Assembly (NCBI GenBank): GCA_030700255.1
Contig: JAUYJN010000005.1
Location: forward strand, 1 to 32,623
Reading direction: 5' to 3'
Length of the DNA stretch: 32,623 nt
Origin: Candidatus Peregrinibacteria bacterium
GTDB lineage: Bacteria; Patescibacteriota; Gracilibacteria; UBA1369; JABINC01
Numbering within the stretch: position 1 is the first letter of the stretch; each line of letters begins with the position of its first letter. Made by a program: the position numbers and the translations under genes. Below the pieces are notes generated by a model. The model saw nothing but the letters and a program-made list of their open reading frames with translations. It was not told the DNA's origin and did not search any database. Below are positions 5,326-25,600 of this stretch, in pieces.

Positions 5326-7437
5326 ATGTCACTGGACAAAAAAATAGTCGATGATAAAGAAGTAATGGAAATTATAAAAAATGCACTTGGTCTTGGTGAA
5401 AGTGACCTTAGTAATATAACGCCTATTTTACCTGCAATTGACTCAAAGGCAATCCTTGCAAAATTTGACGAAGAAACCGCATCTTTACAATCCAATCCTA
5501 AAGAAGCATTCACACTTCCGGATTTCAATGATTTAGAAGTTAAATCTGATATAGAAGAAGAAAAAACAAGGATTTCAGAGATAAAAGCTCAACATGCAAA
5601 AACATTATATCAACTTGCACAATCGGTGACCAAACGTGAAAAAATCGCTGTCCAAGCAGAAATTGAAAGAGAAAAGGCAATCATAGAATATTTAGACACT
5701 CTAATCAGCGCATATGAGTCAATGTTAATCGTCGCAAACAATAAATATGAATATAAAACTTTGTACGAACGAACAGCGGCTGAACTTAAAACTAAAATTG
5801 AAGAACTTGATAGTGACATTCAAGCTTTAAAAAAAAGTAAGCAAGCAGCTGAAAGCCGAAAAGAAACTGCTACAAATACAGTTATACGTAAACTAAAAGA
5901 GATAACATGGCTTCAAAGTGAGAAACCGAGTGAAGAGATAAAAGCAAATAACACTCTAATAGACACTCTAACACGTGAACTAGAGGAGAAGGCTACGCAA
6001 CGTGATGCTGCAGACACAAATTTACAAACTGTAAGGAGAGAATTTAATGATATAAAAGTATCTCCAGAAGAAGAAAAACTAAACGAGGCAAGAGATACTA
6101 TAGCTAAGAGAGATGAGGAGATCAAAGAAATTGAATGGGAAATAACGAAGGCCGTAACAGAAAGGGATTATGGCCTTATGGGAACTAAAGCCCAAGAGTG
6201 TCTAAGCAAAATTGCAGAAAAAGAGCAAGCGGCAGGCACACTCGCCGACCTTATGAAACAAATGCTAGGAAAGCCTGAAGAAGATATAACCAACTTATCA
6301 GAAGAGGAGCTTGAAGCGAAATTTAATACTACTTACGCAAAACATTTAGATGCACGAAGAGATATACAATGTAAGATAGAAACACTGAATGAAGAATATA
6401 ATATTTTAGATAGAAGAATTGAAGAAATAGAAGTGCAAATATCTAAAACACGTAAAAGAAATATAGATGTTCAAGTATATTTAAATGATGTAAATCTAGT
6501 ACCTAAACTACATAAAGACAAAGAAGCATTTTTAGCAGAGGAAGGGAAGGAAGCTACGATTATAGACGAATTAGAAGAACGTATATCAACTTTAGATGAA
6601 CTTAAAAAGAAACTTGATGAAGTACCTGTTAATAATGATGAGAGAGAACTTAAGGCAGATGATTTCAGAACAAATACACTTGAGCCTTCTCAAAATAACG
6701 TAGATGTTGCTATCAAACTGGTAAAAGAAAAAAGAACACTCGCGGAGACTATTGATAAAGAAGTAATGGAAATTATACTATTCAGCTCAGAAGAAGCAAG
6801 AAATGAAAGCCTAGTAAGAAGATTAACTGACGAAAACAGAAAAATTCTGCGAGCACAACTAGTCGCGACACTAAGCGCAACCTCTCAAACTACTGAGGTT
6901 TCACAAGCAGTCTTTGATGAATTAGCACAACTAGTCGCGACACTAAGCGCAGCCTCTCAAACTACTAAAGCTTCACAAGCAGTCTTTGATGAATTAACAC
7001 AACTTAAAGAATCAATCAAAATAAGAAATGTAAGACAAAATCGTCTAATCACAGCTCTTATGGTTGCTGCTTTACTTTTAGTTGGTGGTAACTTCTTCAG
7101 CGAAGACAGTAACAATACAAGTCTAACAGGATATGATGACAGGACGGAAGAAGAGGACGACGACGATAACGATACAAGCGCAGAAAACACGGATGACACA
7201 AATAGTACGGAAAAAACTGAAGCTACCACTGCTGCTCTTACTTGGATACCCTCCTCCGCAACTACCCCTACTCAGCAAGAAGCCCCTACCCCTGCTCCTA
7301 CTTCTACTCCTACTCCAACCCCTCCTCCAGCTACTAAAAAAGCAAAAGCGCCTGCCACAAAGAAACCTGCTTCAACAGAACCTACACCTACACCTACCCC
7401 ATCACCACCAAACCCTTGGAGGAAACCAAACATATAA
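5326..7437 (+). CDS. Membrane-anchored coiled-coil protein with Pro/Thr-rich tail, family unknown
   Basis: I do not recognise a family. The 703-aa product is dominated by long charged heptad-like helices (residues about 60-470), rich in Glu, Lys and Leu, typical of an extended coiled coil. Residues 510-557 are two tandem copies of a 24-aa unit. One hydrophobic segment at about 574-592 (LITALMVAALLLVGG) is a likely transmembrane helix. After it come an acidic stretch (EEEDDDDND) and a tail of Pro/Thr/Ala repeats (about 640-703), which looks like an extended linker. There is no signal peptide, so the coiled coil is probably cytoplasmic and the tail outside, but topology is inferred. It has its own strong promoter. 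The stop codon may be secondary: the frame continues in phase into the decayed ORF at 7465, so a C-terminal domain may have been lost. Confidence 0.8.
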   Translation: MSLDKKIVDDKEVMEIIKNALGLGESDLSNITPILPAIDSKAILAKFDEETASLQSNPKEAFTLPDFNDLEVKSDIEEEKTRISEIKAQHAKTLYQLAQSVTKREKIAVQAEIEREKAIIEYLDTLISAYESMLIVANNKYEYKTLYERTAAELKTKIEELDSDIQALKKSKQAAESRKETATNTVIRKLKEITWLQSEKPSEEIKANNTLIDTLTRELEEKATQRDAADTNLQTVRREFNDIKVSPEEEKLNEARDTIAKRDEEIKEIEWEITKAVTERDYGLMGTKAQECLSKIAEKEQAAGTLADLMKQMLGKPEEDITNLSEEELEAKFNTTYAKHLDARRDIQCKIETLNEEYNILDRRIEEIEVQISKTRKRNIDVQVYLNDVNLVPKLHKDKEAFLAEEGKEATIIDELEERISTLDELKKKLDEVPVNNDERELKADDFRTNTLEPSQNNVDVAIKLVKEKRTLAETIDKEVMEIILFSSEEARNESLVRRLTDENRKILRAQLVATLSATSQTTEVSQAVFDELAQLVATLSAASQTTKASQAVFDELTQLKESIKIRNVRQNRLITALMVAALLLVGGNFFSEDSNNTSLTGYDDRTEEEDDDDNDTSAENTDDTNSTEKTEATTAALTWIPSSATTPTQQEAPTPAPTSTPTPTPPPATKKAKAPATKKPASTEPTPTPTPSPPNPWRKPNI
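6853..6996 (+). repeat. Tandem duplication, two 72-bp copies
   Basis: Copies at 6853-6924 and 6925-6996 differ at about 4 of 72 bases and encode two 24-residue units (LVATLSATSQTTEVSQAVFD and LVATLSAASQTTKASQAVFD, with their flanks). The period is a multiple of three, so the frame is kept. They sit between the coiled-coil region and the membrane segment. High identity implies a recent duplication or conversion. Confidence 0.9.
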
Positions 7438-7464
7438 ACCACACTTTATAAACACGAAGAAGGC

Positions 7465-7706
7465 ATGAAAGATGTTTTTGACCGAACCGGTTTAAGGGGA
7501 CAAACCTAGATGTTTTAACAAGATTTGCAAAAACAGAATTTGGCATAGAACAATCTGAAATAATGGCGATTCTTAAAGAATTAACAGAATATTTATCAAA
7601 AAAGGGAGAGCTTCAACAATTAGAGGTATTAAAAAATTACTTAGATGAGGCGACTAGACTGATTACAACATTCCCACGCCTACGTCAAGCTGAGGTTCCT
7701 TATTAG
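7465..7706 (+). pseudogene. Frameshifted ORF of about 80 codons, possible lost C-terminal domain of the upstream gene
   Basis: ATG 7465 opens MKDVFDRTGLRGQT and stops at TAG 7507-7509. In the -1 frame the reading continues at once as NLDVLTRFAKTEFGIEQ and on to EVPY, ending at TAG 7704-7706. Joined, the pieces make one plausible helical protein of about 80 aa, so a single-base change near 7500-7506 has split it. The site lacks a standard X XXY YYZ slippery heptamer, which favours decay or a sequence error over programmed frameshifting. The first piece is in the same frame as the 703-aa gene, only nine codons after its TAA. The whole could therefore once have been a folded domain at the end of the Pro-rich linker. 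A weak AAGG precedes the ATG. Confidence 0.5.
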
Positions 7707-7718
7707 GGACCTCTTTTT
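7692..7718 (+). terminator. Intrinsic terminator at the end of the first transcription unit
   Basis: GAGGTTCC (7692-7699) pairs with GGGACCTC (7706-7713), giving 8 bp with one G-U, a TTATTA loop, then five T residues (7714-7718). It overlaps the last codon and stop of the decayed ORF and ends exactly where the first ATG of the giant ORF begins. Confidence 0.75.
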
Positions 7719-10700
7719 ATGGTAAAATATAAAGATTTTATAAATGTACATAAAAAAACTATCCCGCTAATGCAAAACTTCCACTGTCAATTCACCCCCT
7801 CTAACTCATTCGACTCATCTCGTAAGTGTTTTTCACTCGAATCAAGGCTAGTTTGGGCAAAAGAAGCTTCAGAGAACGGAGAGAGTAGTCCTGCCGAAAT
7901 AGCAAGACATGCTATAACGCCGGAAAAGCTAGGGGAAGCTATAGTCAAACAACTTAGAAAGATTCTAAAAAAAGATATCCTTAAGGTAACTAGTGATAGT
8001 AAAGCCAGAGAAAGCACATCGCAAGAAGTAAGAATTGGAGGGAAGAACTATACAATTAAAAATGATGATTTAATACAGCTTGGATCACATCAATTAACTC
8101 GATCACTAACGGCCTCTCCACTTTGGGATGATATTAAAACTGCAATTCCAGATATAAGCAGTAGAAAAACAGAAATCATAGATTTGATGAGTTTATACAA
8201 AATTAGCATGACATCTCTTATACCAAAGGATGTATTTTGGCTTAAAACACTAAAAGAGGGGCTCTCTGAAACAGATAGAACAGAACTACAAGAGCTGGAA
8301 GATGCCTGGAATGAAACCGCCTCTCAGGACAGAGGGGAATTCAAAAAAGAGATGGAGAAAGAGTACAAGGCGGCAGTGGAAGATTCTAGAAGAAAAATGG
8401 AAGATGAAGAGGCGAAAGAAGCAGCTAAAGAGGGCCGTGCTACATCAGCACAAATGCGTGAATGGAAAAATTTTACCGATAAATTTAAAACAAAATCCGG
8501 CACAGTCGATAAATGGGAGGGTCTTACACCGGAATTAAAAACGCTTACATTAAGTAGTAATGATTTTACTGATCTTTTATCCATAGATGACATAAAGGAA
8601 ACAAAATTTATAAGAGAAGATGCCGAAGGGAAGGCATTAACATTTGAAGCAACACCGGAAGAAATAGCCCTATTTGAAAAAATAACTGCATTCATTGGGG
8701 GGAATTTAGGATTTGGAGAGAACGTAATAAGGAATATGCAATCTCAAGTATCAAATGATATCTCAAACCCAACAAGCGAACCTGAGCATATTAAACAAGC
8801 GGAAGGAATGAGATTAGTATTAGTAAACTTGAGACAATTTGCAACCGGTTCTCACATATTCAAGAAAATCCTTGAAGATTTCAAAGGAAAAGATTATCAA
8901 ACATTCTATGGAGCTTTCTACGACAACAACGGTAAGTTAACAAAAAGTAATAGCAAAGGACTAGGGAAATACATTTCAGACCTTGGATTAAAAGATGCTC
9001 TTACAACAGAAGAATATAATAAGATATTCCTTGTTGTATGTCCAGCTGCAATATATCAAACTTGCACCTCTTTAAAGAAAAAAGAAGAGGAGGCGGAAGC
9101 AAAAAGTGAACGTAAAAAAATCGCAGAAAAAGAGGCTGAAAAAATGGCGAAAGCGGAAATAGCAAGAATGAATGAGGAAAACGAACGTCAAAGAATTCAA
9201 GCACAAGAAACTGCAGAAAGAGAACAAAAAGAAGCGCTGTCCGCACAAGAAAGAGCAAAAGAAGATGCTAAAAAAGCAGAAGAAGAGGCGAAGAGACTTG
9301 AAGGTGAAAGGGCCGAAGCGGAGAAACATGATAGAGAATTAAAAGCACTTAAAGAAAAAGTAGGAACTGCTAGCACAAAAATGAAACAATATATTGACAC
9401 TGTTAACCCAAATACAACTCAATGGGTAAATTTAAAAGACTTATCAGAATTACAAAAACCAATTCAGGACGAAGAAATCGAAAATGCAAATGAAGAAAAC
9501 ACATTTGAAGATTTACGAAAAGAATATATTGAAAAGGCAATAAAAATATATATGAGGGATTTAAGAGAATTAAATGCGATAGATTTCGCAACAAAAGTAA
9601 GAGGAGATAGCGTTTATGTAGAAAGTAAGTCAAAGGTAATACAAATCCCAGGGGGGGATACAACTACTATACCAGCGAAAAAAACATACATATCATTAAC
9701 TATTTTTACCCTTGCACTAGAACGAACCGGGCTCAATGAGTACAAAAGATATTACTCAAGAGAGGCGAAGGATACGAGAGATGCCCTGTTGGCAAAGGCT
9801 ACAAAAGCATTTGAAATTTTCAAAAAAGCAGACACACCAAATGAAGACATAGCCCCGGAAGATCTGGCAAAACCGGAATTCGCACAAATATTTGCTGAAT
9901 TTAAATCCGGATCAGCTCCAGCCATCGCTTCAAACACGCCAAAACCAAAAACACAAGAAAAACAAAATCCATTTGATGATCTCGGGGATGATGCAAAGTT
10001 TACACAAACAAGAGGAAATGCACTCAGATTTGCGAAGTCAGGAAATATGAATAAAGCGAAACCATTATATGAAGAGGCACTTAAGTATGTAGAAGATAAT
10101 TACAACCTTGGAGAAGGGGCGAATTCAGTCAAAATAATAGATAAGTACCTGGCAGTAGGTATTGAATACATAAACTATCTTTACAAGAGCATGGGAAGCA
10201 AAGCAGACGTAAAGCATTTTAAAAAAACCGTCGAACGCTTATCTAAAGTAAAAGATTACTGTCATGAATTTAAAATGCCTCTAGCTCAATGGGAACGGGC
10301 TTCAAGTCAAATACACGAAATAAAACTAATAAAATTTGGAACTGGCCCTGATAAAAGTTCAGAACTAAACTTCGCTGCACAAATAGCAGATCCAAGGGCC
10401 AAAGCCACATTTACAAGAATAGAAAGTAATGCAATAGAAGATACCAAGGGTGAAAAAGAAGCTTCTACATTTTTCTTTGAAGGAACATATACATTTGAGA
10501 ATATAAATACAATCTTTACACAGAGCAAGCTCACGATAAACAACGTCGAAGTATCCTTAGAAAAAGGTAAAAAGTATAAAATAGAACAAAAGAATGGTGT
10601 TTCAAAAATAATTGAGATTATAAATAAAGGGACGTTACCAAATGGCGACACCCGTGTCACCTACAAAATAGATGATAAAACAAAAACTATTGTCATACCA

Positions 10701-13700
10701 AAGGATGGTGAATACAAAGTGATAGTCGAAGGTAGCATTGTGTATAAAATACCTTCAGTGGAAGAAATAGACGTCGCAAGCCTAAACAAAAGATTAAAGC
10801 AACTTGGGAAAATCAAAATAACAGAAGAACCCACTGAAGCTATTGCAGAGAGTAAAGATGTACAAGAAGAAACAAAACCTGCAATCGAAGAAAAACCAAA
10901 AGTTCACTCATATGGTCTACCGGAAGATAGGGCTGCGCTCGCCGGTTACATAAAGACAACCGAGGAACTATATATAAATAATGGAAATATAGTTAGTGCA
11001 TCGATTATTGCGGAGACAATAGAAAAGGAATTTCCAAATATGGAAGGTGATGCTGCTCTGTATTTTGCAGATATGTGTATGGCTATAGCTGATGGTCTTT
11101 ATAAACAATTGGCAAATGATGAGAGGACAGATTATGCAGACGTGGATATACGCTTAACTGAAGCGTTAGAATATTTTGAAAAAGCAAGTAAATATTCAGA
11201 GGTGGCAAAAGCTACCGGAAGTATAATAACCAGTGAAGTCCTAGATCAAAATCTAAGTAGTCATAGCTTGGGACAACTACAAAGAATTCAAATAAGTGAT
11301 ATTTCCGATTATAAAATCACAAGAACTTTTGATGTAAAAATAGATCCGATTGATAAAAAAATATCAGAGAAAATCAGTGCCGCAATTGAGGAAATAAATA
11401 AAGAGCGGAAAAAAACTAAATTCAAAAAATCATACATCAAAGATAATAGTATATTTGTTTATGTTTTCTCAGGAGACTCAATAAATAATAGCATAATCGA
11501 TACAACGACAAAGTCACCACTATCTCTCAAAGAAATAGATGCTAAAAGAGTTGCAGACTTGGCCATCGCTGAAGCAGAGTTAGAAGTGGAGACGCAAGAA
11601 GAGCATGTCGCAGAACCTGTGGTAGAAACCGAGGCGGAAAGAATCACAAAAGAATTTGATACAAAAATAGCATATCTTATGAATGCTGATGAAAAGCCTG
11701 AAGTCGATGAAATGCTAAAACAAAGAATTGATTTCGATCAAATACTCGATTTATATAAATTGACTGAATTTGGAAGTTCAGACAAAAAGACAAGTTATGA
11801 AGGTCTCGCAGAGAAATTCATAAGTCTTGCGATAGATGGCATGATGTCAAAAATGGAAAGTTCATTCACTATTTCTCAAACAAATAATGGCAGAAGACAA
11901 TCATGGTTAAAAGATAACAAATACTCTACAGAAAACTTCCTTGATTACTACTTTGAAAAAATGGGTGTTAAAGAATTTAAGACGAAACTCATTAGCAATG
12001 AAGATATTAAAGAAAAAGCCGAAACACAATTAAATGGAAGTGAATATGTAAAAACCGCCCTACTCTTCGATGTTTCAATTAGTGATAAATTTAAAGCTAT
12101 AGTATCAAAAGCAGATACAAAAACTGTAGGTGAATGGATTTACCCGGATAGAGTGCCGGACCCTATTACAGATGCAGGACTTTCAAAGATGTTAGCACCT
12201 GCAAGATATTTAAGGTGGGTTAAAGAAGAAGTCTTCAAAGATCAAAGAGATCTGTTCCATGAAGATGATAGAGATGCTGCAGAAAAAATAATAAAAGATT
12301 TTTTGATAGCGAATCTAAGCAATGATAGCCTTAAAAAAACTGCTGAAGAAGTAAATAAATATGAAGAAGTGCCAATCACCGATCTCGAAAATGCAACAAA
12401 AGAAATCCTCGCTACAGATATATTTATGAATGCGGCAACACTTGAAAGTGAGTTGATTGAGAAATTTGAAAACAAGTCTGATGGAACAAAGCAAAGGCTC
12501 GCAATCAGTTCAACAGACGGTGATAGTACAAATGAAGGTATAAGATTCAGACAACTTGCACTGGTTGCATTCAGAGAAAAATTTGAACACTTCAAAAATG
12601 ATACGAATAAAGCACCATATAGCTCAAGTGAGGCATTGAGAGAAAGCTGGCTAACCGTATATCAAGCTTACAATATCCAAACATTCTCACCAAAGAGCTT
12701 TGAAATATTTGAACTAACTGATGCGCCTCGGCACATAGACAGAAGTGACCCTCTAGATAAAGCTCTTGGAGATTTGATGCGTGATGCAGTGATGTATTTC
12801 GCAGAAATATATTTGAAAGAAGCATTGCAAGAAGCGAAATTTAACGGAGTTGATTTCCGGGCGAAATTTGCAGTAAAGGACGGTTCAGGAAATATCACAT
12901 ACGATGAAAAAGCATTCTTCCGTGCTATTGCAGAAACAGAAATACCTGATGCCGAAGGCGACATATATGCATCGCTAGATTATGTGACACATTTCTTAAA
13001 TGATTTTGATTCATTTAAATTTGAAAAAAGGGTTGCAAAAGCTATCAATCCGGAAACAAAAATACTCGATACAGCCTACGTATATTCAGGGGATTCTAAA
13101 AAAGTGGAAACATGGAGAGATGGAGCAAAGGAAACTACAGAATCTTATAATGAAAACGAAATTAAAAGTAATAAACCAGCCTTAGATTTCATCAAATGGT
13201 TTGGAAAAGAAACAAAGTCAAATGTTCCAAAGAAGATAGATCCTAGTGTGCTTTCGGCAATGACCGGGAGGCTTGTTGCAACTTTAAATAATGAACCTGT
13301 CCCAGCTGAAGTTGCTTCAACACAACCGGAAATAATGGTGGGAGATGAGAAATTTACACTTGAAGCTATAAGCGAGGCCGTCACCAAACAAGGACTCATG
13401 GACGGTAAACGTTGGGATCAAATCAAGATAAACGATATATTTTTAGCAAATATAATGCTTAATTCAGCATACGTCGATGATGCTGTTAGAATTTATATGG
13501 AAGGTAATAAAGATGAAGCAAATGTTGAAAATAGAAATGGGTTCTTCTACAGATATCTAAGAAAAACTTATAAGAAAAAAGATAGGGAAGCCTTATTAGC
13601 ACTTACTCCTGACAAACTCACAGACAAGCTTAATAAAGAATATGAAATCCCTCGTGAACATCTAGTTCATAATTTCGATGTAGCCGGAAAATTAAGAGAA

Positions 13701-16700
13701 TATCAAGAAGAAACGCTTGGAGCAGAAAGTGTCACGGCGACACTTGAGCGAGAAGAAGATGAACTAATAGCAGAAACAAGGAAAGATGAAGAAGATGAAA
13801 AAACTACTCTACGTAGCAAGGCTGCGGAGATTGAAGACCAAAGAATTCAAGCCATCGCCGAAAGATTAATTGATAGTGATGCTCTAGCAGCTAAAACTCT
13901 AATAAAAGGAATGAGCCATCAAGAATCAAAAGCTTCAGAAAGAGGAATTTCTGAGGCAAGAGATACAACTAAAACGACAGCCGAATTCTTGAATAGAACA
14001 CCGGATGCGGAAGTCCAAGCAATGTTTGATAACATAAATGCATTTATAAAATCAGAGATTAATAATGCCGATCCAAAAGCAACTCAACTTAGAGCTGCTC
14101 AGATTGTAATCAAAGATATTTTAATAAATGCTGCGCATGAAAATGGTATAAGACCTCCACTTAAAAAATATGATCTCGGACAAGTACTCATACTAAATAA
14201 TTTACGCATCGCAAATCATTTGGTAAATGTTATGCAAGATCAATCTACTGAGATGGTACCTGAAGAATTAGACCAAATGCTCACAGAGTTATTTGAAAAA
14301 GATGATACATTTAGAGAGCTACTTTTCAGAGACGGTCTGTCACTCGAACCACTTAAAACAGCTTGGATCGAAGCAAGAAACAAAGAACCACAAAAATTAA
14401 CAGCCGACCTACTCCGCGAAATACTTCTCCGTCTTCCAAGTACAGAAGAGCAAATCAAACAAATCCCAAGTGAAATAATGCTCCGGTGGTATGAGAAAAC
14501 AGCTGACGGCGAACTCGTATTCAAAGAGCAATTAGATACAATGAAAATCGTCCTAATCATACTAAATAGTTTCGGATTTAGAATCCAATCTCTTGATCCG
14601 CCAACTACTTCTTCTGAAAATGAATTAGCAAATGAAGTACTCACACGAATAAAAGATATCCTTAATATTTATCACCCTCGTAACGAAGCTCTCGGGGACA
14701 AAAACAAGGATGGAGAACCGGGCAGGGATTACACTCTTAAAGACCCGTATAAAGCTAAACTTTTAAGGCTCACACCTTTGGCGGAAGCTGCGACATTTGA
14801 AGACGCAAGTTCAGCTGAAAAATTTGAAACATTAAAAGCTGCCTTCTTTGACGCAATAGGAAATGTAAGGGATCGCCGAGACAGAGCCTCAACTCTGGAA
14901 CCTTACCGAGAAGTTCTAACTTATCTCAATGACAAGGATTTAAGTGTTAATACAGATAAACAATATATGACACTATTTTACGAGACCTTAATGACAATGA
15001 AGGCTCCTGAAAAAACTGAAGTCATAAGAAGTGAAGAGTTAACCGTACGTGAGCAAGTAATAGATGCTGAACGCACAAAACTTGCAGAAGAAACAAATTT
15101 ACAAAATTCATTACTCGAACAACTTTATAGAGAAAACGTATTAATAGATGCAAAAGAAACGATCGATGAAACGGGAGGACTCAAACTAAAAGATTCAAAA
15201 GTTGACTTCAGTAATTTACAACATTTAAGTCGCAATGTATTCTCAGAAAAATTCAGATACGCAGTCAAAGGCGGGGAATTTCTAACGGGAAAAGAAGCGG
15301 GAGAAGCTTACGGAACAGCACTGAACCTCCTACTTTCAAGCAAAGCCGCTGATAAATCAATTGTCGGGTTCGGTGATTTTGCACTAAGTAAATTTTATAA
15401 AAACACCGCCGGAATAGATTCCCCATTACAAGCGAAAGAAAAATTCTTCAGTGATTACAAGGACATAAAAGATGTTTTAAAAACTATCGCAGAACATCAG
15501 GATAAAAATCCTGAAATAGAAGGATTCGAAAAAGGATATGAAAACGAACCTTGGTACAAAGCATACAAACCACTTGCGAAACGTACGGCACGTATACTTT
15601 ATGATCAACTGCAAAGAGATGGCGTACTAGAGAAAAAACTCATAATAGACCCTAAAACACTTAAATTTTTAGAAGAAACACTACTACGTGGAGAAGCTCC
15701 TAAAAGTCTGGAAATGATGGAGACTGAAATGGAAAGCTATATGGTAAGCAGCTCGAAAATTATAGATGTATTAAAGAAAATCAATGAAGAAATCGGTATT
15801 GTAAACATGATCGAAAGTACCGAAGAAAACGCAGATCAAACAAGGCTTTATACAATTACCGGATATAGTCGGTTACACTCTCCATACAATGATAAAAATC
15901 AGCCGGAATACGTTTCATTTGCAGAGTACCTGGAAAGACTACATCTACTGCAAACTCAGATGAATATTTACAATGGTATGGATAGAGAAATGAATAAAGA
16001 AACATCGCCTCATCAACTTTGGCTTAAAAAATGGAAAGAAAAAAGTTTCGATAAAACAACCAAAGAAACATATAGATGGTTGACCGGTGATTTCACTACG
16101 AGAGACCAAGGGGAAATGATCAATTTCTTAAACGAAGTTCTCAACAAATATAATAAAGAAAGGCCGGAAATCTTGAGATCCGCACATAAGCAGTGGACGC
16201 TCGAAGAAATCAAGCAAGCTCGCAGATTTGATGCAATGCATGAAGGCATCGCTGCAAATAACCAATTAAATGATCCAAGATCATACAAAGACAAAAGATT
16301 TGGCACATTACTGGAAGACGCAGAAACTGACGCAAACTTACAATTTGAAAATCTCAAAGATGCTTCCGGACCATGGAGCGAACATGACATTGCATTCAAC
16401 TACGGACTCACAAGTGAGAATTCAAGACTGCAAAGTTTCGAAGCGGTTTACATTTCAAATAGAATGAAAAAAGATTTCGTTGAAGCGTTAAAGTCACTCG
16501 ATATAAGACCACCGGAAAAGAAGCAAAAAATGATAGATGCTTTCCAAAATAATCCTGACGATATAGCCAAATTATTTTATGCAATTCTTGGCAAAGAAGA
16601 AACAAGGAAACGTCCAGGGTTCTTCAAAGTGAATTTCGAAGAAGTAAAAATAGGAACCGATAGAGTAAAAAGACCTTGGGCGGTAATGGATATTCCACAA

Positions 16701-19700
16701 GTAGACTGTGCGAGTTTCTTAGAAAAAAATCAAGAAATAATTCAAGATTTAACATGGAAGACCCCTACTCTAAGAGAGATTGTACTTGCCAAAGGAACCC
16801 CTGGATTCATCGAGTTTTTCCAAAGAGGTGAAGTCCTCGAACATATAGTATATGACCAATCAGAAGCAGCAATGGCAAGGTTACAAACATCAGAAAATCC
16901 GCTTGATAGTTTGATGGAATACACACTTCGAATTCATGAAATAAGCGATAGAGGAAAATCAATCGACAGACCAAACCGTGCAGAATTAGAACAAAAAGCC
17001 AAAGAACAATATACGGATTTATACGAGATGTATGTAAATCGTGACTCAGCATGGCAACAATATACAAGCAATACATTTGTGATGAGCAACGACCCTGAAC
17101 TCAAAAAAACAGAAGAATTGAAATTCAAAGGTAAATATGCGGACAAACTCCTAAAAGACGGTATCTCGACTATGAGCTTCATGCTTGAATACCCAATTAC
17201 ATGGGATACAAAATATGACAGATTTATAGATGTTGATACTGTTCATAATTTGTATGAAGCAATAGGGATTCTATTTGCCGAGAATCTAAGTGGATTTGGA
17301 GTAGACAATGAAAATATTGAAATAAGCACACTACAAAAACTTCTTATAATACGTGATTCAAATGAAAAGATTTTTGATGCAAACAATAAAACGAGATCGG
17401 ATCGAATGTCTAAATTAAAACCTAGACACATAGATGCTATAGCGACTGCGATGCAGTTCGGAAAAATCTACAAAAAAGCAATCGAACAAGGTGAAAATAG
17501 AAAACAAATGGTATTTGATATTTTTAGAAGTAAAAAAGATGGAGGTATAGATATAGCCTCATTGTTGAAAGCACAGGACGTGGCATTTAAAGCGAAAGGT
17601 GTCGATCTTACAGCTGATGAACTTTATAAAATAGGTGATGACCTACGTACAAGACTCGCTAACAACACACTCAGCCATATAGAACTAAGTCGAGATATGG
17701 AGGGCGCAGCCATAGAATATATGGACTTCCGAACTTTACTTGCCTTCCCTGTCGAGGGTTACGAAGGCATAGATGATGAAGTATTCATGCAATGGAAACT
17801 GAAAGTAAGTGGACAAGCAAAAGAGCTATTCACCGAAAGAATGCGCCATCTGGTCGCACCATTCATTGATGCCGAATTAACACCTTCAAACCTTGATAAA
17901 ATTCTACAAGCCTATGTTGATATACAAGATTTAAAGCATAAACAATTAGAAATTAAACCGTATGGCGATGAATATTCCAATATAGAAAGTGAAATAAAAA
18001 ACATAGATAAAAAGTTAAGCAAACCTATGCCGCCGGAGGCAAAAACAAAGCTTGAAGAAAGAAAACAACGTTTGATAATTGCCAAAGAAACACTAAAGAA
18101 ATCAAAAGAAGATTACGATGCACTAAGTACAAAAATTGGAATAATAAATGATATATTGGAAAAAGAAATCGGAATTGATTATGCGGTAGAAAAATTAGAA
18201 AAATTACTTGTAAATGATTATGGTGAACTTTTGAGAAAAGCTGTAACTGATTTACCGAAAATCGATGCTGCGAGCTTCTTCGGAGGATTTGGAATGAATG
18301 TAGATGTTATGGCGGAGAGAGCACAGCTCGGATGGAATGCGGGAATCAATCTGCCAAAAGAACATCGGATAGATCTAATGCTAACAGTCACTCCGGGAGA
18401 CGGAGCCGGCGTTCAAGCCGGAGGATCAAAAGGATGGAACGAGCTCGGTGCGGAGGGCAGAGGAAAAGTACAAATTTTCGCGCATGGAGGATTTAATGCG
18501 GGACTAAATGATACGGTAGCAAGGTTCAATGGAGGAGTCGAATATTCAAAACTTGAAGGCGGAAGACGTGAGTCACGTGGAAGTATAGGAGCCTTTGCAA
18601 CTGCAGAAATAGGACCGGATGGAATCAAAGCGACTATTGGAGCTATGGCTTCAGTCGGGGGATTATCACCTGAAGAAAAGGAAATAAAATACAAAAAAGA
18701 ACTTAAAGCCGGAAGGGAAGGAATTCTTAAAAAAGAATACGAACGCGTCGATGCTTACGTAGAAGCTACGGTTACAGGGTCTTACGCTGAAAAAGAAGCT
18801 ATAAAAAAATCCATAATGGAAGCCATGGAAGATGTGTTCTTAAGAGCTATTATAGATGCGGAGGCCGGACGTGCGGCAATGCCAAAAACAATAGAATTAA
18901 CAAGATTCGAGGTCGGAGTAAGTGTCGGACTGGATAAAAATATAGCCACTCTCGGACTCCCTGTACAATTACATATGGCATTTGTATTCTCTGTAGATGG
19001 GAGAGTTTTTGTAACCAGAGTTGCAACACCGGAACACATAATGGATGAGGCCTCTGACAATGAAATAATGAGAATACTTGAAGATGAAGGAATTAAAGCC
19101 GGAGAAATGACACTAACTTCTCCACTAACTATCGATGACAACAATATGCTTTCAAGTGCAACGGCCAGAGGAATGATCGAAAGGGCTGAAGATGCAAAAG
19201 ACATACTTATCAAAGTCGGTGAAGGTGGAGAAAAGATATATACAAAAAAAGGTGATGAAGGTCTCAAACTCAAAGGTGCATATGAAAAATCAGTCACACT
19301 TGGGAATTTGGAAGAGGCAAAAAGCAAATTCACCGAGGATTTCAATAAATACATGGACATATATCGTGACAAAATCAAAGCGGCACAAATCAGACTCGAA
19401 CCAATTCCGGGCGATATCCACAAAAAACGTCTCGTACTTTACAACACACCTGGAATCACAGAAATCCACATGGATCCGACATCTGAAGATTTAATGGAAA
19501 TAGATGCAAATGGGAATATGATTTTCGACTTCGCATCGGGATTCCCGATTATCACAAAAGAAGTATTTGAATTCGAAGCGGAAAATTACGGGGCAAATAC
19601 GGTAAATATAATTACGATCAAATTTAACCGTCATCTTTCACGTAAACAAATCGAAGCAAGTGAAAGAAACTATTACACGGTGATGAGAAATGATGAGGAC

Positions 19701-22616
19701 ACCGAAAGCAAAGCTATTAAAATGACACCAAGACGAGCAATCGAGCTCGACTTAACTATGGTCGAACGTGCCAAGAAAAAAGACACAGAAGGGTTCTTCC
19801 AAGAAATTAAAGCTCTATACGATCGCTCTAAACACATCGATGCAATGCATCACAAATTCATAGACAGATTCGGTGGTATCAAAGCCGTCGACCCAAGATA
19901 TGAGTATATTTCAAAAGACAGAGTGGAAGATATTAGTGATGCCGTAACAGCTTTTATACATCCTAAGCCTACAAGCGATCCTAAACGAATAGATGAACAA
20001 AAAGCTCTAATCAAAGATATCGAGAAATACTTCACTTTGAGTATAAAAATAAATGAAGATGATAAAAAGGGAAGGCACAGGCTTGAAGAGAAAGATCAAC
20101 TTGATTTACTTCCAACACAAGTTCAAGAAACTAAACAATTAATTCAACTTATCCAAAAATGGTACAAAAAAGAATATGGAGCAGAACTTAATAACTATGA
20201 ACTTCAATACTTCCTAGGTCAGATGGTCTTTGAAACGTTCTACAATATTCATAGATCAAGCTATACAAATAAATCTTATTTTATAAGTGCTGATGAAATA
20301 TTCACTGATAATGGAACGATAGACGAGCCGGGTAAACGAGAAAAATTACAAAAGAATATGGGTTCACTCTCAAATCCTGTTTACAAAACAATGCAAAATT
20401 ACCTTGCTCATCTACATGGATCAGGAAGAGATATGGCAAGGAGTGTTGCGGAAAACTACGTAAACAATCACCCTATTCAAGGGCAAGAAGCAAATAGAGA
20501 CGCAAGAATAAAAGCTTTAACTGAATCTTTGATTGGAGATAGTGAGCAAGAAGTCCATAGATTGATCATGGAGAAAATGGAACTATCTTCGATAGAAGAA
20601 GCAAAAGAATATTGCGACTATCTAGCTTACAAATATTTCAAGGATCGAGATTCTGCTGGCTATGACGGCAAAGGGTACATAGCAAGAGAACAATTAAGTT
20701 TCATACCTAAAAGAATCGAAGAAATCGAAATTAGACTCAAAACTCCAGAAACAATCAGAGCATTCTACGGAGCATATGAAAATATATTTGAAGGAAGTCA
20801 GGCTGACATGATTCATGATGAAAATTCTATGCTACTTACAAGATTAAATGCATCGTTTGCATCTGCAAGACATTTCAAAGAAGATGTAGTTAATCCAAGA
20901 GGCTGGTACAGTGCAGGTGGACGTGCAGTAGAGGCTCTAAGTGCAAACTTCGGAGGTCTACGTAAATCATTTATATATGACCTTGGTGATCCAAAAGAAT
21001 CAGAAAAGGCACGTGCGGTATTTGAATACATGAGACCACTTCCAAGGCTTGGTAGAGAAGACGGAGTCGAATATAACCCACTATCAGATGTAGATTTCTT
21101 CCAAACCGGAGACGAAGATATCAGATTCGCAGTTCGACAAGAAGAAGCACCCATCCACGATCCAAAAAGAAAACGAAGGATTTCAACAAAAAGTGAGTTA
21201 GAAGATGCAATAACAAAAGCAGAAAAACTTTACGAAGATATCGAAATCACAATGCAAGACGTAAAAGAATATTTATCAACTCCTATGGGTCTCAAAGTCC
21301 TAGAGTGGGCTGGAATGTTCTTAAAAAAAACAGATGCAGATATAATGCTTGATCTATTTTCAGAAGTAAGAGCTGTACCTTACGACGACCTAAAAAACAG
21401 AGAACCACTAACTGAACCAACAAAAGCTGCATTCGTAGAATTTGTAAATATAAATCGTGTACTTCGTGAAATAGAATATTTCAACGCAAACCCCGAAGCT
21501 CACGAAGATGCATTCTACACCGTAGGTCTTGGCGGTACAGAATACGAAGCTCAAATAAGATACATACCTGTTGAAAGAATCGAGAGTGGTGTAAAAAAAT
21601 TAACTGATTCATTCAATATAATTGAAAACGATACTGACTTTGATAAAAATATATCAAAATTCTTAGGAGATTATGTTGAGATTGAAAGTACCGAATTAAC
21701 AAAATTACTAGACAATACAAATGGAAGAGCAAACTGTATCAGCTATCTCAAAAATCATGAGAAAGAAGTCGGATTTGCTAAGGAAGAAATAGATGGATTA
21801 TTCAAAGATTTCAAAACTAGAGAGTCAGCTTTAAGGCAATTCGCAAGAATAATCGCACTTTCGAAATTCACTCCACTTTCAAAACAAGAAAGAGAATCAA
21901 TTTTGAAATCAAATGATGCCACAAAAGAAATAAGCAGAATGATAACGGAGGAAAACGAAAAACAATATTTGAATCAAAAAAATAGTCGAGTTATGCCAGA
22001 CGGCACAGTACAGGACGTAGTACCTGTGGCATATATATTCAAGAGTTCTGACCCTGAAAATGTAATAATCGTAAATGCAGGAGGTATATCTGCAACCGGA
22101 ACATTCCTGAAATGTGGTAACTGGTCAACTCTAGCACAAGAGCAATTAGCACTATTTGTGCAAGAACAAAGAACTACAGTATTAGATGGCGGCGGAGCCG
22201 CCAAAAAAGTAACCGGAGATGTAATCAAACCTAAGATGGAAACCCAATATGGTGAAGGAGTATTCGGAGTATCGGGCGGAGGTAGATTGAAGGTGACACC
22301 TCCAACAGATATAACTCATGGTAAAAATAATACAGATACAAATAGTACAAACAGTGGAGTAAATGAAGGATATGAAGATATTCCAATAGACGATAATGGT
22401 GAAGTAGACACAATCACTGGTGACAAAGGATCTTTTACAGTCACTCCAACTGAAGCGGGTGCCACAACCGGAACATCCGGAGGGAAACAGTCCCCGGAGG
22501 GAATTTCACTACGCAGAGGTAATCAAAATCCTGAGACTACAGAATCTAAACCAAAAGTAAAACAGCCTAAGAAAAAATCTGATGATGAAAGTGAAGAGGA
22601 CTTAAGTGGAATATAA
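7719..22616 (+). CDS. Giant protein of unknown family, up to 4,965 aa
   Basis: This is a single open frame of almost 15 kb. I recognise no family and assign no function. There is no signal peptide, no membrane segment and very little cysteine, so it looks cytoplasmic or exported by a non-Sec route. Visible pieces: a highly charged Glu/Lys/Ala helix at about 455-555, TPR-like helical pairs at about 760-860 and 1070-1150, then thousands of residues of mostly helical, Lys/Glu-rich sequence. A Gly-rich alternating-hydrophobic segment at about 3517-3650 stands out as beta structure. It is followed by more helical sequence and a disordered Thr/Ser/Gly tail (about 4850-4965) ending in Lys/Glu/Asp. 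The first ATG (7719) abuts a terminator, and ATG 7770 (MQNFHCQF) is a plausible real start, giving 4,948 aa. It lies between a membrane-anchored coiled-coil protein and a secreted modular protein. Confidence 0.85.
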   Translation: MVKYKDFINVHKKTIPLMQNFHCQFTPSNSFDSSRKCFSLESRLVWAKEASENGESSPAEIARHAITPEKLGEAIVKQLRKILKKDILKVTSDSKARESTSQEVRIGGKNYTIKNDDLIQLGSHQLTRSLTASPLWDDIKTAIPDISSRKTEIIDLMSLYKISMTSLIPKDVFWLKTLKEGLSETDRTELQELEDAWNETASQDRGEFKKEMEKEYKAAVEDSRRKMEDEEAKEAAKEGRATSAQMREWKNFTDKFKTKSGTVDKWEGLTPELKTLTLSSNDFTDLLSIDDIKETKFIREDAEGKALTFEATPEEIALFEKITAFIGGNLGFGENVIRNMQSQVSNDISNPTSEPEHIKQAEGMRLVLVNLRQFATGSHIFKKILEDFKGKDYQTFYGAFYDNNGKLTKSNSKGLGKYISDLGLKDALTTEEYNKIFLVVCPAAIYQTCTSLKKKEEEAEAKSERKKIAEKEAEKMAKAEIARMNEENERQRIQAQETAEREQKEALSAQERAKEDAKKAEEEAKRLEGERAEAEKHDRELKALKEKVGTASTKMKQYIDTVNPNTTQWVNLKDLSELQKPIQDEEIENANEENTFEDLRKEYIEKAIKIYMRDLRELNAIDFATKVRGDSVYVESKSKVIQIPGGDTTTIPAKKTYISLTIFTLALERTGLNEYKRYYSREAKDTRDALLAKATKAFEIFKKADTPNEDIAPEDLAKPEFAQIFAEFKSGSAPAIASNTPKPKTQEKQNPFDDLGDDAKFTQTRGNALRFAKSGNMNKAKPLYEEALKYVEDNYNLGEGANSVKIIDKYLAVGIEYINYLYKSMGSKADVKHFKKTVERLSKVKDYCHEFKMPLAQWERASSQIHEIKLIKFGTGPDKSSELNFAAQIADPRAKATFTRIESNAIEDTKGEKEASTFFFEGTYTFENINTIFTQSKLTINNVEVSLEKGKKYKIEQKNGVSKIIEIINKGTLPNGDTRVTYKIDDKTKTIVIPKDGEYKVIVEGSIVYKIPSVEEIDVASLNKRLKQLGKIKITEEPTEAIAESKDVQEETKPAIEEKPKVHSYGLPEDRAALAGYIKTTEELYINNGNIVSASIIAETIEKEFPNMEGDAALYFADMCMAIADGLYKQLANDERTDYADVDIRLTEALEYFEKASKYSEVAKATGSIITSEVLDQNLSSHSLGQLQRIQISDISDYKITRTFDVKIDPIDKKISEKISAAIEEINKERKKTKFKKSYIKDNSIFVYVFSGDSINNSIIDTTTKSPLSLKEIDAKRVADLAIAEAELEVETQEEHVAEPVVETEAERITKEFDTKIAYLMNADEKPEVDEMLKQRIDFDQILDLYKLTEFGSSDKKTSYEGLAEKFISLAIDGMMSKMESSFTISQTNNGRRQSWLKDNKYSTENFLDYYFEKMGVKEFKTKLISNEDIKEKAETQLNGSEYVKTALLFDVSISDKFKAIVSKADTKTVGEWIYPDRVPDPITDAGLSKMLAPARYLRWVKEEVFKDQRDLFHEDDRDAAEKIIKDFLIANLSNDSLKKTAEEVNKYEEVPITDLENATKEILATDIFMNAATLESELIEKFENKSDGTKQRLAISSTDGDSTNEGIRFRQLALVAFREKFEHFKNDTNKAPYSSSEALRESWLTVYQAYNIQTFSPKSFEIFELTDAPRHIDRSDPLDKALGDLMRDAVMYFAEIYLKEALQEAKFNGVDFRAKFAVKDGSGNITYDEKAFFRAIAETEIPDAEGDIYASLDYVTHFLNDFDSFKFEKRVAKAINPETKILDTAYVYSGDSKKVETWRDGAKETTESYNENEIKSNKPALDFIKWFGKETKSNVPKKIDPSVLSAMTGRLVATLNNEPVPAEVASTQPEIMVGDEKFTLEAISEAVTKQGLMDGKRWDQIKINDIFLANIMLNSAYVDDAVRIYMEGNKDEANVENRNGFFYRYLRKTYKKKDREALLALTPDKLTDKLNKEYEIPREHLVHNFDVAGKLREYQEETLGAESVTATLEREEDELIAETRKDEEDEKTTLRSKAAEIEDQRIQAIAERLIDSDALAAKTLIKGMSHQESKASERGISEARDTTKTTAEFLNRTPDAEVQAMFDNINAFIKSEINNADPKATQLRAAQIVIKDILINAAHENGIRPPLKKYDLGQVLILNNLRIANHLVNVMQDQSTEMVPEELDQMLTELFEKDDTFRELLFRDGLSLEPLKTAWIEARNKEPQKLTADLLREILLRLPSTEEQIKQIPSEIMLRWYEKTADGELVFKEQLDTMKIVLIILNSFGFRIQSLDPPTTSSENELANEVLTRIKDILNIYHPRNEALGDKNKDGEPGRDYTLKDPYKAKLLRLTPLAEAATFEDASSAEKFETLKAAFFDAIGNVRDRRDRASTLEPYREVLTYLNDKDLSVNTDKQYMTLFYETLMTMKAPEKTEVIRSEELTVREQVIDAERTKLAEETNLQNSLLEQLYRENVLIDAKETIDETGGLKLKDSKVDFSNLQHLSRNVFSEKFRYAVKGGEFLTGKEAGEAYGTALNLLLSSKAADKSIVGFGDFALSKFYKNTAGIDSPLQAKEKFFSDYKDIKDVLKTIAEHQDKNPEIEGFEKGYENEPWYKAYKPLAKRTARILYDQLQRDGVLEKKLIIDPKTLKFLEETLLRGEAPKSLEMMETEMESYMVSSSKIIDVLKKINEEIGIVNMIESTEENADQTRLYTITGYSRLHSPYNDKNQPEYVSFAEYLERLHLLQTQMNIYNGMDREMNKETSPHQLWLKKWKEKSFDKTTKETYRWLTGDFTTRDQGEMINFLNEVLNKYNKERPEILRSAHKQWTLEEIKQARRFDAMHEGIAANNQLNDPRSYKDKRFGTLLEDAETDANLQFENLKDASGPWSEHDIAFNYGLTSENSRLQSFEAVYISNRMKKDFVEALKSLDIRPPEKKQKMIDAFQNNPDDIAKLFYAILGKEETRKRPGFFKVNFEEVKIGTDRVKRPWAVMDIPQVDCASFLEKNQEIIQDLTWKTPTLREIVLAKGTPGFIEFFQRGEVLEHIVYDQSEAAMARLQTSENPLDSLMEYTLRIHEISDRGKSIDRPNRAELEQKAKEQYTDLYEMYVNRDSAWQQYTSNTFVMSNDPELKKTEELKFKGKYADKLLKDGISTMSFMLEYPITWDTKYDRFIDVDTVHNLYEAIGILFAENLSGFGVDNENIEISTLQKLLIIRDSNEKIFDANNKTRSDRMSKLKPRHIDAIATAMQFGKIYKKAIEQGENRKQMVFDIFRSKKDGGIDIASLLKAQDVAFKAKGVDLTADELYKIGDDLRTRLANNTLSHIELSRDMEGAAIEYMDFRTLLAFPVEGYEGIDDEVFMQWKLKVSGQAKELFTERMRHLVAPFIDAELTPSNLDKILQAYVDIQDLKHKQLEIKPYGDEYSNIESEIKNIDKKLSKPMPPEAKTKLEERKQRLIIAKETLKKSKEDYDALSTKIGIINDILEKEIGIDYAVEKLEKLLVNDYGELLRKAVTDLPKIDAASFFGGFGMNVDVMAERAQLGWNAGINLPKEHRIDLMLTVTPGDGAGVQAGGSKGWNELGAEGRGKVQIFAHGGFNAGLNDTVARFNGGVEYSKLEGGRRESRGSIGAFATAEIGPDGIKATIGAMASVGGLSPEEKEIKYKKELKAGREGILKKEYERVDAYVEATVTGSYAEKEAIKKSIMEAMEDVFLRAIIDAEAGRAAMPKTIELTRFEVGVSVGLDKNIATLGLPVQLHMAFVFSVDGRVFVTRVATPEHIMDEASDNEIMRILEDEGIKAGEMTLTSPLTIDDNNMLSSATARGMIERAEDAKDILIKVGEGGEKIYTKKGDEGLKLKGAYEKSVTLGNLEEAKSKFTEDFNKYMDIYRDKIKAAQIRLEPIPGDIHKKRLVLYNTPGITEIHMDPTSEDLMEIDANGNMIFDFASGFPIITKEVFEFEAENYGANTVNIITIKFNRHLSRKQIEASERNYYTVMRNDEDTESKAIKMTPRRAIELDLTMVERAKKKDTEGFFQEIKALYDRSKHIDAMHHKFIDRFGGIKAVDPRYEYISKDRVEDISDAVTAFIHPKPTSDPKRIDEQKALIKDIEKYFTLSIKINEDDKKGRHRLEEKDQLDLLPTQVQETKQLIQLIQKWYKKEYGAELNNYELQYFLGQMVFETFYNIHRSSYTNKSYFISADEIFTDNGTIDEPGKREKLQKNMGSLSNPVYKTMQNYLAHLHGSGRDMARSVAENYVNNHPIQGQEANRDARIKALTESLIGDSEQEVHRLIMEKMELSSIEEAKEYCDYLAYKYFKDRDSAGYDGKGYIAREQLSFIPKRIEEIEIRLKTPETIRAFYGAYENIFEGSQADMIHDENSMLLTRLNASFASARHFKEDVVNPRGWYSAGGRAVEALSANFGGLRKSFIYDLGDPKESEKARAVFEYMRPLPRLGREDGVEYNPLSDVDFFQTGDEDIRFAVRQEEAPIHDPKRKRRISTKSELEDAITKAEKLYEDIEITMQDVKEYLSTPMGLKVLEWAGMFLKKTDADIMLDLFSEVRAVPYDDLKNREPLTEPTKAAFVEFVNINRVLREIEYFNANPEAHEDAFYTVGLGGTEYEAQIRYIPVERIESGVKKLTDSFNIIENDTDFDKNISKFLGDYVEIESTELTKLLDNTNGRANCISYLKNHEKEVGFAKEEIDGLFKDFKTRESALRQFARIIALSKFTPLSKQERESILKSNDATKEISRMITEENEKQYLNQKNSRVMPDGTVQDVVPVAYIFKSSDPENVIIVNAGGISATGTFLKCGNWSTLAQEQLALFVQEQRTTVLDGGGAAKKVTGDVIKPKMETQYGEGVFGVSGGGRLKVTPPTDITHGKNNTDTNSTNSGVNEGYEDIPIDDNGEVDTITGDKGSFTVTPTEAGATTGTSGGKQSPEGISLRRGNQNPETTESKPKVKQPKKKSDDESEEDLSGI
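7720..7728 (+). promoter_or_regulatory. Possible extended -10 promoter of the giant gene
   Basis: TGGTAAAAT fits the extended -10 form TGnTAtAAT with one mismatch. The -35 position 17 bp upstream (TTATTA) is poor and falls in the terminator loop. Transcription would start near 7735. That is downstream of the first ATG (7719), so translation would have to begin at the next in-frame ATG, 7770. Confidence 0.3.
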
Positions 22617-22681: not shown

Positions 22682-25600
22682 ATGAAAAAATTCCTCTCGA
22701 AAATCCCAGGACTTACATTAACAATATTGCTAATAATAATATTAGCAATAAATGTTGCTTATGCGGTAAAGCCGGCGAAAAAAGCTCAAAGCCCTTTTAA
22801 TGGCCTATTACAAATAGTGGAGTCACTTAATCCTTTGGGTAAAAACCCAACTCTTCCACTTATAATAGGTGGGCCTATGACACCGGACACAACGCCTTCG
22901 AGACCATGTATATTGATGCCACCTGAATATTATAACCCTGCAAATCCATATGACAGATGGCCAATAGTAACAACATGGTATTATGATGTTTTAAATAATT
23001 TCTCAGGATACATAATAGATGCCGTAGACCAAGATAGTAACAATAGATTCAGCGAAGCTGTCGATACCTACACTCGTCCACTCCCACAAAACTCATTCAA
23101 TAATTTTTGTTTCAATGCGGGACAAGACAAAAACCCATACGTAGATGATGATGGGGATGGAGAATTTAATGAAGATAGACCTGGCGGAGGAGACAATGAC
23201 GGTGATGGGAATATAGATGAAGATGGTTGGCCATGGGATGGTAATTTTGGAGATTATGGGACACTCGCTCTCTATCAAGGTAATGAAAATGGCGACACAG
23301 GGACAAATAGTAATGATGTAACCTACCCTGTTGTTGATGAAAGAAGATTTATGGTTGTCTCAAAATGTGACGATCCAAACACTTCAACTTCAACAAACGA
23401 AGCCTATGATGCTAACGATGTAACTTGTAATGGTCAATTCACATCTTTAAATGAGTATACTGCTATGATAGACCAAGTGGATATAGAACCTGGCGACATA
23501 GTTCGTTTTGGTGTTTATGTTCACAACAATTCACGTTATCCGGATAATCCAAGTGCGATTGCAAATGATGTATTACTACAATTTGACACCAAAACGAACC
23601 CGAACAAGCCTCGTGCCGCTATAAGTGCACCAAACAATATTTATCATGAAAATCCTTATAATACTAGCAGCCCTACTCTCAGGGATGTTGACGATTTAGA
23701 TAACGACGGTAATACGGTGGAGATACTCAGAATGGCAACCGATACAACTAGAGTAAATTCTTTGGTGCCGATACTGCTCACACCTATCCCTGATGCTACT
23801 TGGCTATACAATGAACAAATCGCATCAAACCCACCGAATTCAAATAATCCTTCTTATCATGTACCTTTCAGAATAACCAATGGTAGCACTACAATTATTC
23901 AAGATTATGGAACTCCACCATCTGTACCGATTACAGAAACTTTTGATCCATCTATAGTCAATGAAGATTTCGAACTTGGAATAGATCAAGTACCGGGATG
24001 TTTCGAATTTGATGGATGGTATTTTTTCGACTACCAAGTAGAAGCAGCGCAGGAGCCACTTTGTGAAGAACTCGATGTACAATGGATGCAACAATGGCCG
24101 GCTTATGAGCCTCTTCCTGTACTTCGCGATGAATTCATTTTACCCGCAGATGGTAATCCACCGGTGCCAATCAATTTTTCAGACGGAACGGATGAAGGAC
24201 TTTATATAGTTGGAGACAGTACAGCTCCGCTAATAATACAAATAAACCGAAACGGGTATGAAGGAGATCTCATATGGGAACTTGTAATACCGGACGGCTC
24301 AGGTAACTTGGTTCCATATCAATCAAGTGTCGATCATTTCTGTTCAAATGCAGCCACTGGAATGCAACAAGACAGCTGTAATTCGGGAACTACAATGAGT
24401 GATAACAATGCAGGAATTATATTTAATAGATTTCGAACAAACGTAAACTCAACTCTAGGGGCAGCTTACAAACAAAATACTTTCAAAGTATATAACCTAA
24501 ATCAAGAAGTAATCTTACATGTATATGCTCCGGCAGGGAACGGAGAAAAAACTTCAGCTTGTAAAGAAGCTGTGTACTTTCCTTCTTGTCAGGATATGAC
24601 GTTAATAGCTCCTATCACTTTGGATGACCTTACAATCGATCTTGCAACAGGAATTGAAATAGAAGTAGACACCGTTCCAGAATTCTACAATGGACCTATA
24701 GTCTTTGGAACTGACAATCAATGTGGTGTATTTGATATAGATGATGGCGGCAGTGATTACACAGATGATCCAAATCCGTTACAAAACTTAACAATTCTTT
24801 ACGAAGTAACTGTAGACTTCGGTATCAATGACCCAAAAACTGCGTGGTACAACATCAATACGGGAGAGCCGGGATGTTCTACTAACACAGGAGAAGGTGA
24901 CAATATTACTATCCGTGCCCTATCTGACAAAAGAGGTTTCTGTGAACAAACATTCACACTTACAGAATCAGAACCTCAATTCTGTACAGATTTAGAGGTA
25001 AGTGTACAGCCCGATGTATACTTAGATGATGGCAGTGACACAATGACTGCAACCATAGATATAAATGCATCTGCAGGATGGAGCGGAACTTTAGCCGCCC
25101 TAGTATGTGCAAGCCCAACAAACCCATTGCTATGCGTACTCAGCCTCGACCATACCGCAAAAATCACTTCAATCAATATTCCAACCGGAAGTATTTTCGA
25201 CACACCTGGCACAGTATCCCAAGCGGCCGCAACAATCGGCCCGGTTGGTGACGGTGACCAAGTACGAATACAAATAGAAAATATTAACAATGAATTAAGC
25301 CAACTATATGTATACGCATTACCTATTGAACCAGCATGTTCCGACATCACCCCTTTTGAATGGTGTGGAGATGGAATCATAAACGACGGAGAGGCTTGTG
25401 ACGATGGAAACAATATAGATGATGATGATTGTAGCAACACATGTGAGATCGGGGAAACACCGGGAGAATGTACAGATGTAGAGCTCACAACAGTTCCAAC
25501 ACCTATATATTTAGAAGATACCTCAACTGCATTTGATGTAAATATTGATGTTACCGCAGATCCAACTTGGACAGGAAGTAGTTCAACTATGGTATGTCCG

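Follow-up and report, generated by a model that had tools for sequence, protein, structure and literature searches.

Positions 7438 to 7706 of the analyzed DNA hold coding-like sequence interrupted by a stop codon and a frame break, and we read them, with about as much confidence as doubt, as the decayed remnant (or scar) of a coding sequence lying between a complete gene for a 703-residue protein and an old terminator. The window, by which we mean the whole 32,623-nucleotide stretch, belongs, as contig C5, to a Candidatus Peregrinibacteria genome of 1.37 Mb (46 contigs, 97% complete). Among the 98 relatives examined, the genome G001 (Candidatus Peregrinibacteria bacterium SI060_bin36) is the sole member of the same genus.

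The upstream 703-residue protein and its homologue in the sister genome

A genome_contigs search with an alignment of the giant protein encoded downstream in the window gave one locus, namely, contig C25 of G001 (JABINC010000041.1). This contig is syntenic with the window over truB, a murE-like gene, ribF, hpf, and tpiA, all on one strand; the window copies of ribF, hpf, and tpiA were named by Pfam, and the other two we take to be truB and murE-like from our own recognition of their sequences. After tpiA, on the opposite strand, G001 carries genes for proteins of 874, 306, and 573 amino acids, followed by a giant gene.

The 703-residue protein of the window (5326-7437, plus strand) and the 874-residue protein of G001 both adjoin tpiA and by eye share a coiled-coil-like body, one hydrophobic stretch (a single transmembrane [TM] segment), an acidic part, and a Pro-rich tail. 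The two proteins are homologous, with a local alignment score of 190 compared to 102 for the reversed 874-residue sequence, and 77 other long ORFs, used as controls, scored no higher than 101. Between the two genomes, the promoter region behind tpiA is alignable as well (score of 34 versus 19.6 ± 2.2 for shuffles preserving composition only; 0/500 shuffles reached it). From PTPTPTP to the end of the protein, 11 residues remain in the window and 13 in G001, and the frame behind the G001 stop codon reads IAQI and then stops again, with no long open frame. Since the G001 protein ends just after its Pro-rich tail, the TAA at 7435 is likely the natural end of the 703-residue protein, judging from this one comparison, and we read that protein as complete.

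This result argues against the central proposal of the sequence-only reading, namely, that a new stop codon and a frameshift cut off a C-terminal domain from the 703-residue protein. That reading had suggested looking among orthologues for a fused form of ~790 residues and had accepted that the idea would fall if none carried it; the single homologue available for comparison (1/1, the 874-residue protein) has no fused domain, and removal of a domain is thus unsupported. Searches of genome_contigs and viral_contigs with the 703-residue protein confirmed nothing. A lost domain could still appeal to the 23 in-frame codons right after the TAA, which are weakly coding-like, and to the predicted helical character of the small ORF that follows, but the 703-residue protein also has no detectable homology to the G001 573-residue protein (score of 83 versus 76 for the reversed sequence), and we regard this explanation as improbable.

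Within the 703-residue gene, a near-perfect direct repeat was also observed at window positions ~6850 to 7000 (AQLVATLSATSQTTEVSQAVFDEL / AQLVATLSAASQTTKASQAVFDEL); it lies ahead of the TM segment and probably arose by recent internal duplication.

Reading frames and codon use between 7438 and 7706

The earlier reading was correct that the frame continues beyond the TAA at 7435-7437 that closes the 703-residue ORF: it stays open for 23 codons (TTLYKHEEGMKDVFDRTGLRGQT; 7438-7509, plus strand), which include ATG 7465, until the TAG at 7507-7509. It was also correct that a shifted frame runs on to EVPY. This small ORF (P0002; 7482-7706, plus strand, 74 codons) is open from 7482 and reads PNRF...EVPY up to the TAG at 7704-7706. 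Joined, the two frames amount to ~90 codons.

For the codon table used in scoring, we sampled 326,136 bases of the genome (20 of the 46 contigs at no more than 20 kb each, with the window's contig left out) and trained on the 149 long ORFs therein. The small ORF has gene-like codon use, more so than chance would explain. At 0.177 bits per codon, it ranks at the 41st percentile among 447 windows of 74 codons from real genes, whose mean is 0.195, versus a mean of -0.208 for 543 shadow ORFs (wrong-frame gene sequence rather than true intergenic sequence), only 2 of which matched it; its total of 13 bits was reached in 3/2000 shuffles. The length of the small ORF by itself, however, is not more than chance, as 186/2000 dinucleotide shuffles of 7438-7718 had one frame or another open for 74 codons or more. 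The 23 codons behind the TAA are weakly coding-like, with a signal weaker than that of the small ORF (4.03 bits over 7438-7506, equaled by 2.8% of 4136 wrong-frame stretches). Sliding windows prefer frame 1 at ~7450 to 7480 and the other frame from ~7510 onward, and the shifted frame splits into -2.5 bits at 7482-7502 and 15.6 bits at 7503-7703. Given that the coding signal sets in at ~7503 and that ATG, GTG, and TTG are all absent from the shifted frame before ATG 7563, the coding-like sequence begins without a start codon in frame.

Comparisons of the small ORF with sequence collections returned nothing convincing. Against this genome and its 98 relatives, scattered weak matches in unrelated frames were obtained (18/99 genomes at E ≤ 1, including its own; best other E value, 0.0215), and Pfam, NCBIfam, and PHROGs were similarly unproductive. 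The 74-residue sequence had no confirmed match in viral_contigs, no match by sequence in the PDB below an E value of 0.04, and five matches by fold in the PDB, none of them significant (best E value, 3.9); Rfam gave 0 matches for 7400-7800. A single-sequence AlphaFold2 model of the small ORF is helical, comprising three predicted helices of 13 to 20 residues plus a fourth, short one, at a mean pLDDT of 73.9.

These searches bear on whether 7438-7706 is plain 3′ noncoding sequence before the terminator, with an open frame and codon score that are fortuitous. No homologue was found in the 98 relatives or viral_contigs, an open stretch of this length is not rare by chance, and the only DNA in common with G001 is the terminator/promoter junction described below, all of which this explanation would accommodate; the codon score is the sole argument against chance, and we consider noncoding sequence quite unlikely.

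A separate gene of ~80 codons, beginning at ATG 7465 (frame 1) or ATG 7472 (frame 2) and carrying one frameshift from a recent mutation or an assembly error, is another explanation, favored in that frame 1 is coding-like to ~7500 and the other frame from ~7503, such that one change suffices. An SD-like sequence, GAAGAAGG, also lies 8 bases before ATG 7472, but we set it aside because the genome shows no sign of SD use: when the first ATG of each of 151 long ORFs was surveyed with overlaps kept (genome sample L033-L052), a core SD preceded 4/151 ORF starts compared to 9/151 after shuffling. A list of SD-scarce organisms within PMC10783764 includes the Peregrinibacteria member Peribacter riflensis. 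The lack of a homologue in the 98 relatives counts against a small gene as well. As for the sequence error raised by the earlier reading, ten ORFs of the window, comprising 30,225 coding bases, are without a frame break, which makes an assembly error unlikely. The rule of three caps the chance of an error-caused break in 269 bases at ~3%, a bound that is somewhat circular in that open ORFs were chosen. Overall, we judge a small gene with a single lesion to be unlikely, although gene-like codon use and predicted helices fit a living small gene equally well as a recent remnant. It would be highly unlikely, in our estimation, for the locus to encode a living, lineage-specific, fast-evolving small protein that uses an unusual start or frameshifting in a genome lacking SD signals and works with the neighboring membrane and giant proteins.

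Recoding had also been suggested; in a programmed form, readthrough at 7435 and a frameshift near 7490-7506 would generate an extended protein of ~790 residues. Consistent with recoding, both genomes have a tail ending in FPxxRQAxxP that follows a stop codon and whose end lies within the terminator loop. Nevertheless, two independent events would be required, and the G001 homologue of the 703-residue protein has no such extension, with conservation being absent in this one relative, where IAQI and a stop codon follow the 874-residue gene. A strict slippery heptamer (X XXY YYZ) is absent from 7438-7512, where relaxed heptamers alone occur, at 7473, 7488, and 7491. RNA folding around the shift is weak (z scores of -0.36 to -1.69), and no strong stimulatory RNA structure was detected downstream by a test that covers structures other than pseudoknots (z scores of -1.69 and -1.17 for two stretches). 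We find no support for recoding and consider it barely credible. For phase variation, another earlier suggestion, no clear repeat tract was apparent: the longest homopolymers are five T's from 7475, four G's from 7496, and six A's from 7598 and 7631, and both six-A runs fall inside the open small ORF.

The shared, probable terminator/promoter junction and the giant gene

The 3′ end of the small ORF lies within DNA that is conserved in G001. An intrinsic-terminator-like hairpin of nine pairs spans 7692-7713 and, together with its T5 run, scores as a terminator (7692-7718, plus strand; -16.1 kcal/mol, z score of -2.4), with the stop codon of the small ORF falling in the hairpin loop and 3′ stem. 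It is followed by TGGTAAAATATAAAGATTT (7720-7738, plus strand), which is 18/19 bases identical in G001 and probably serves the giant gene as an extended -10 promoter. Window positions 7671-7738 align with G001 locus L032 over 69 columns with a score of 67 (shuffles preserving composition only, 16.3 ± 2.5; 0/500 reached it), and the aligned junction encompasses the small-ORF end, the hairpin and T-run, and TGGTAAAATATA(A/C)AGATTT. The small ORF therefore ends where the 573-residue region of G001 ends. Window DNA upstream of ~7670 did not align to G001.

Behind the TAA of the G001 573-residue gene, the frame reads SIQPTTTVRAKPTTIFPMPRQAKLP and a stop codon, the end of which is similar to TTFPRLRQAEVPY and its stop codon; the G001 tail, TIFPMPRQAKLP, likewise stands in frame behind a stop codon. 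The open stretch in G001 comprises 25 codons (L032 10525-10602) and ends in the terminator loop, as the small ORF does. Since these 25 codons score -3.2 bits with the codon table of the window's genome and are not coding-like, the junction may be conserved as terminator and promoter only, and we most safely regard it as a conserved terminator and promoter. At the protein level, the C-terminal 40 residues of the small ORF have a local match to G001 that 0/1000 shuffles equaled, compared to 208/1000 for the whole 573-residue protein, and a global comparison of the small ORF with the final 75 residues of the 573-residue region was equaled by 3/1000 shuffles, a result carried by the tail (these shuffles, too, preserve composition only). 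We rejected the C-terminal match as independent proof of translation, as it reflects conservation of the junction DNA. Comparisons of the small-ORF body with the G001 proteins of 306, 573, and 874 residues, in which the shuffles again keep only composition, yielded no significant similarity. A by-eye match to the start of the 306-residue protein was dropped, as it fell outside that protein's best three windows, the best of which ranked 21st among 16,117 windows.

When the 81-base junction was used as a BLAST query, matches were obtained in 94/99 genomes at E ≤ 1, and most of the matches listed cover only the T-run/promoter part. This distribution suggests that the T-run plus TGGTAAAATATAAAGATTT (7714-7738), as a terminator-promoter composite, is a common form of extended -10 promoter in the group.

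ATG 7719 sits within the junction, and the giant gene probably starts instead at ATG 7770 (7770-22616, plus strand) based on protein homology and a by-eye alignment of MQNFHCQF...RLVW with MTGPYHRF...RLVW of G001. The window contains two giant ORFs, one of 4965 amino acids (7719-22616), for which neither Pfam nor NCBIfam gave a match at E ≤ 0.01, and one of 2254 amino acids (22682-29446) with a DUF4215/Cys-rich acidic repeat; the open frame homologous to the giant ORF in G001 encodes 6983 amino acids. A passage of PMC8080830 describes giant membrane proteins in a relative.

Proposed origin of the putative remnant and comparison with known systems

In G001, the 306- and 573-residue genes occupy the interval between the 874-residue gene and the shared junction. 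Searches for each of these two proteins in 59 genomes matched only G001 itself, and neither had a match in the window's genome (G000) at E ≤ 0.001. The simplest origin of the remnant would be loss of intervening genes. Under our preferred reading of 7438-7706 as decayed coding sequence, the 703-residue gene would end naturally at 7437, and the stretch behind it would be the transcribed tail of that gene's unit. The window's lineage may have lost intervening sequence like the 306- and 573-residue genes, or gained and then lost other code, retaining only a 3′ piece of ~70 to 90 codons without a working start. Translation of the remnant would then be absent or limited to short peptides. Transcription would stop at the hairpin at 7692-7718, and the giant gene would use its own promoter. 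What we infer, as opposed to observe, is that the small-ORF body stems from a lost gene (573-like or another), that it is transcribed, and that it is not translated. Because the body is without significant similarity to the G001 proteins and the DNA upstream of ~7670 is unaligned, descent from a 573-like gene in particular is not established. Gene loss has been described for this group, with a section of PMC8080830 giving a loss of 30 to 50% of inferred ancestral genes.

Decay had been among the explanations offered by the sequence-only reading, and this part is retained, as decay is the likeliest account of coding-like sequence with a stop codon and a frame break; the proposed origin in the 703-residue protein is not. 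A scrap of decayed code behind a complete gene is in itself ordinary. For annotation, however, the locus is cautionary, since a stop codon and frameshift behind a Pro-rich tail mimic a lost domain, while the sister genome suggests a natural end. It also points to fast turnover, in this lineage, of what lies between a promoter and a terminator that are themselves conserved: one genome has two genes (~3 kb) there and the other a scrap.

Among the closest counterparts, the 874-306-573-giant cluster of G001 resembles the window in its surrounding gene order, its homologous 703/874-residue and giant proteins, and its terminator/promoter junction, but it has two extra genes where the window has a small ORF whose body lacks significant similarity to them. 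Genes with programmed frameshifts, such as prfB (+1) and dnaX (-1), likewise present two frames in succession, whereas the stretch at 7438-7706 has no strict heptamer, strong stimulatory structure, or conservation. The stretch differs from a bacterial pseudogene remnant, or intergenic scar, in that no intact parent gene is identified for the small ORF, the last codons and junction but not the body aligning with the 573-residue region of the one relative compared. It has the coding-like composition of such a remnant, no usable start before 7563, and a frame broken by the TAG at 7507-7509, and, like such remnants, it adjoins intact genes and precedes an old terminator.
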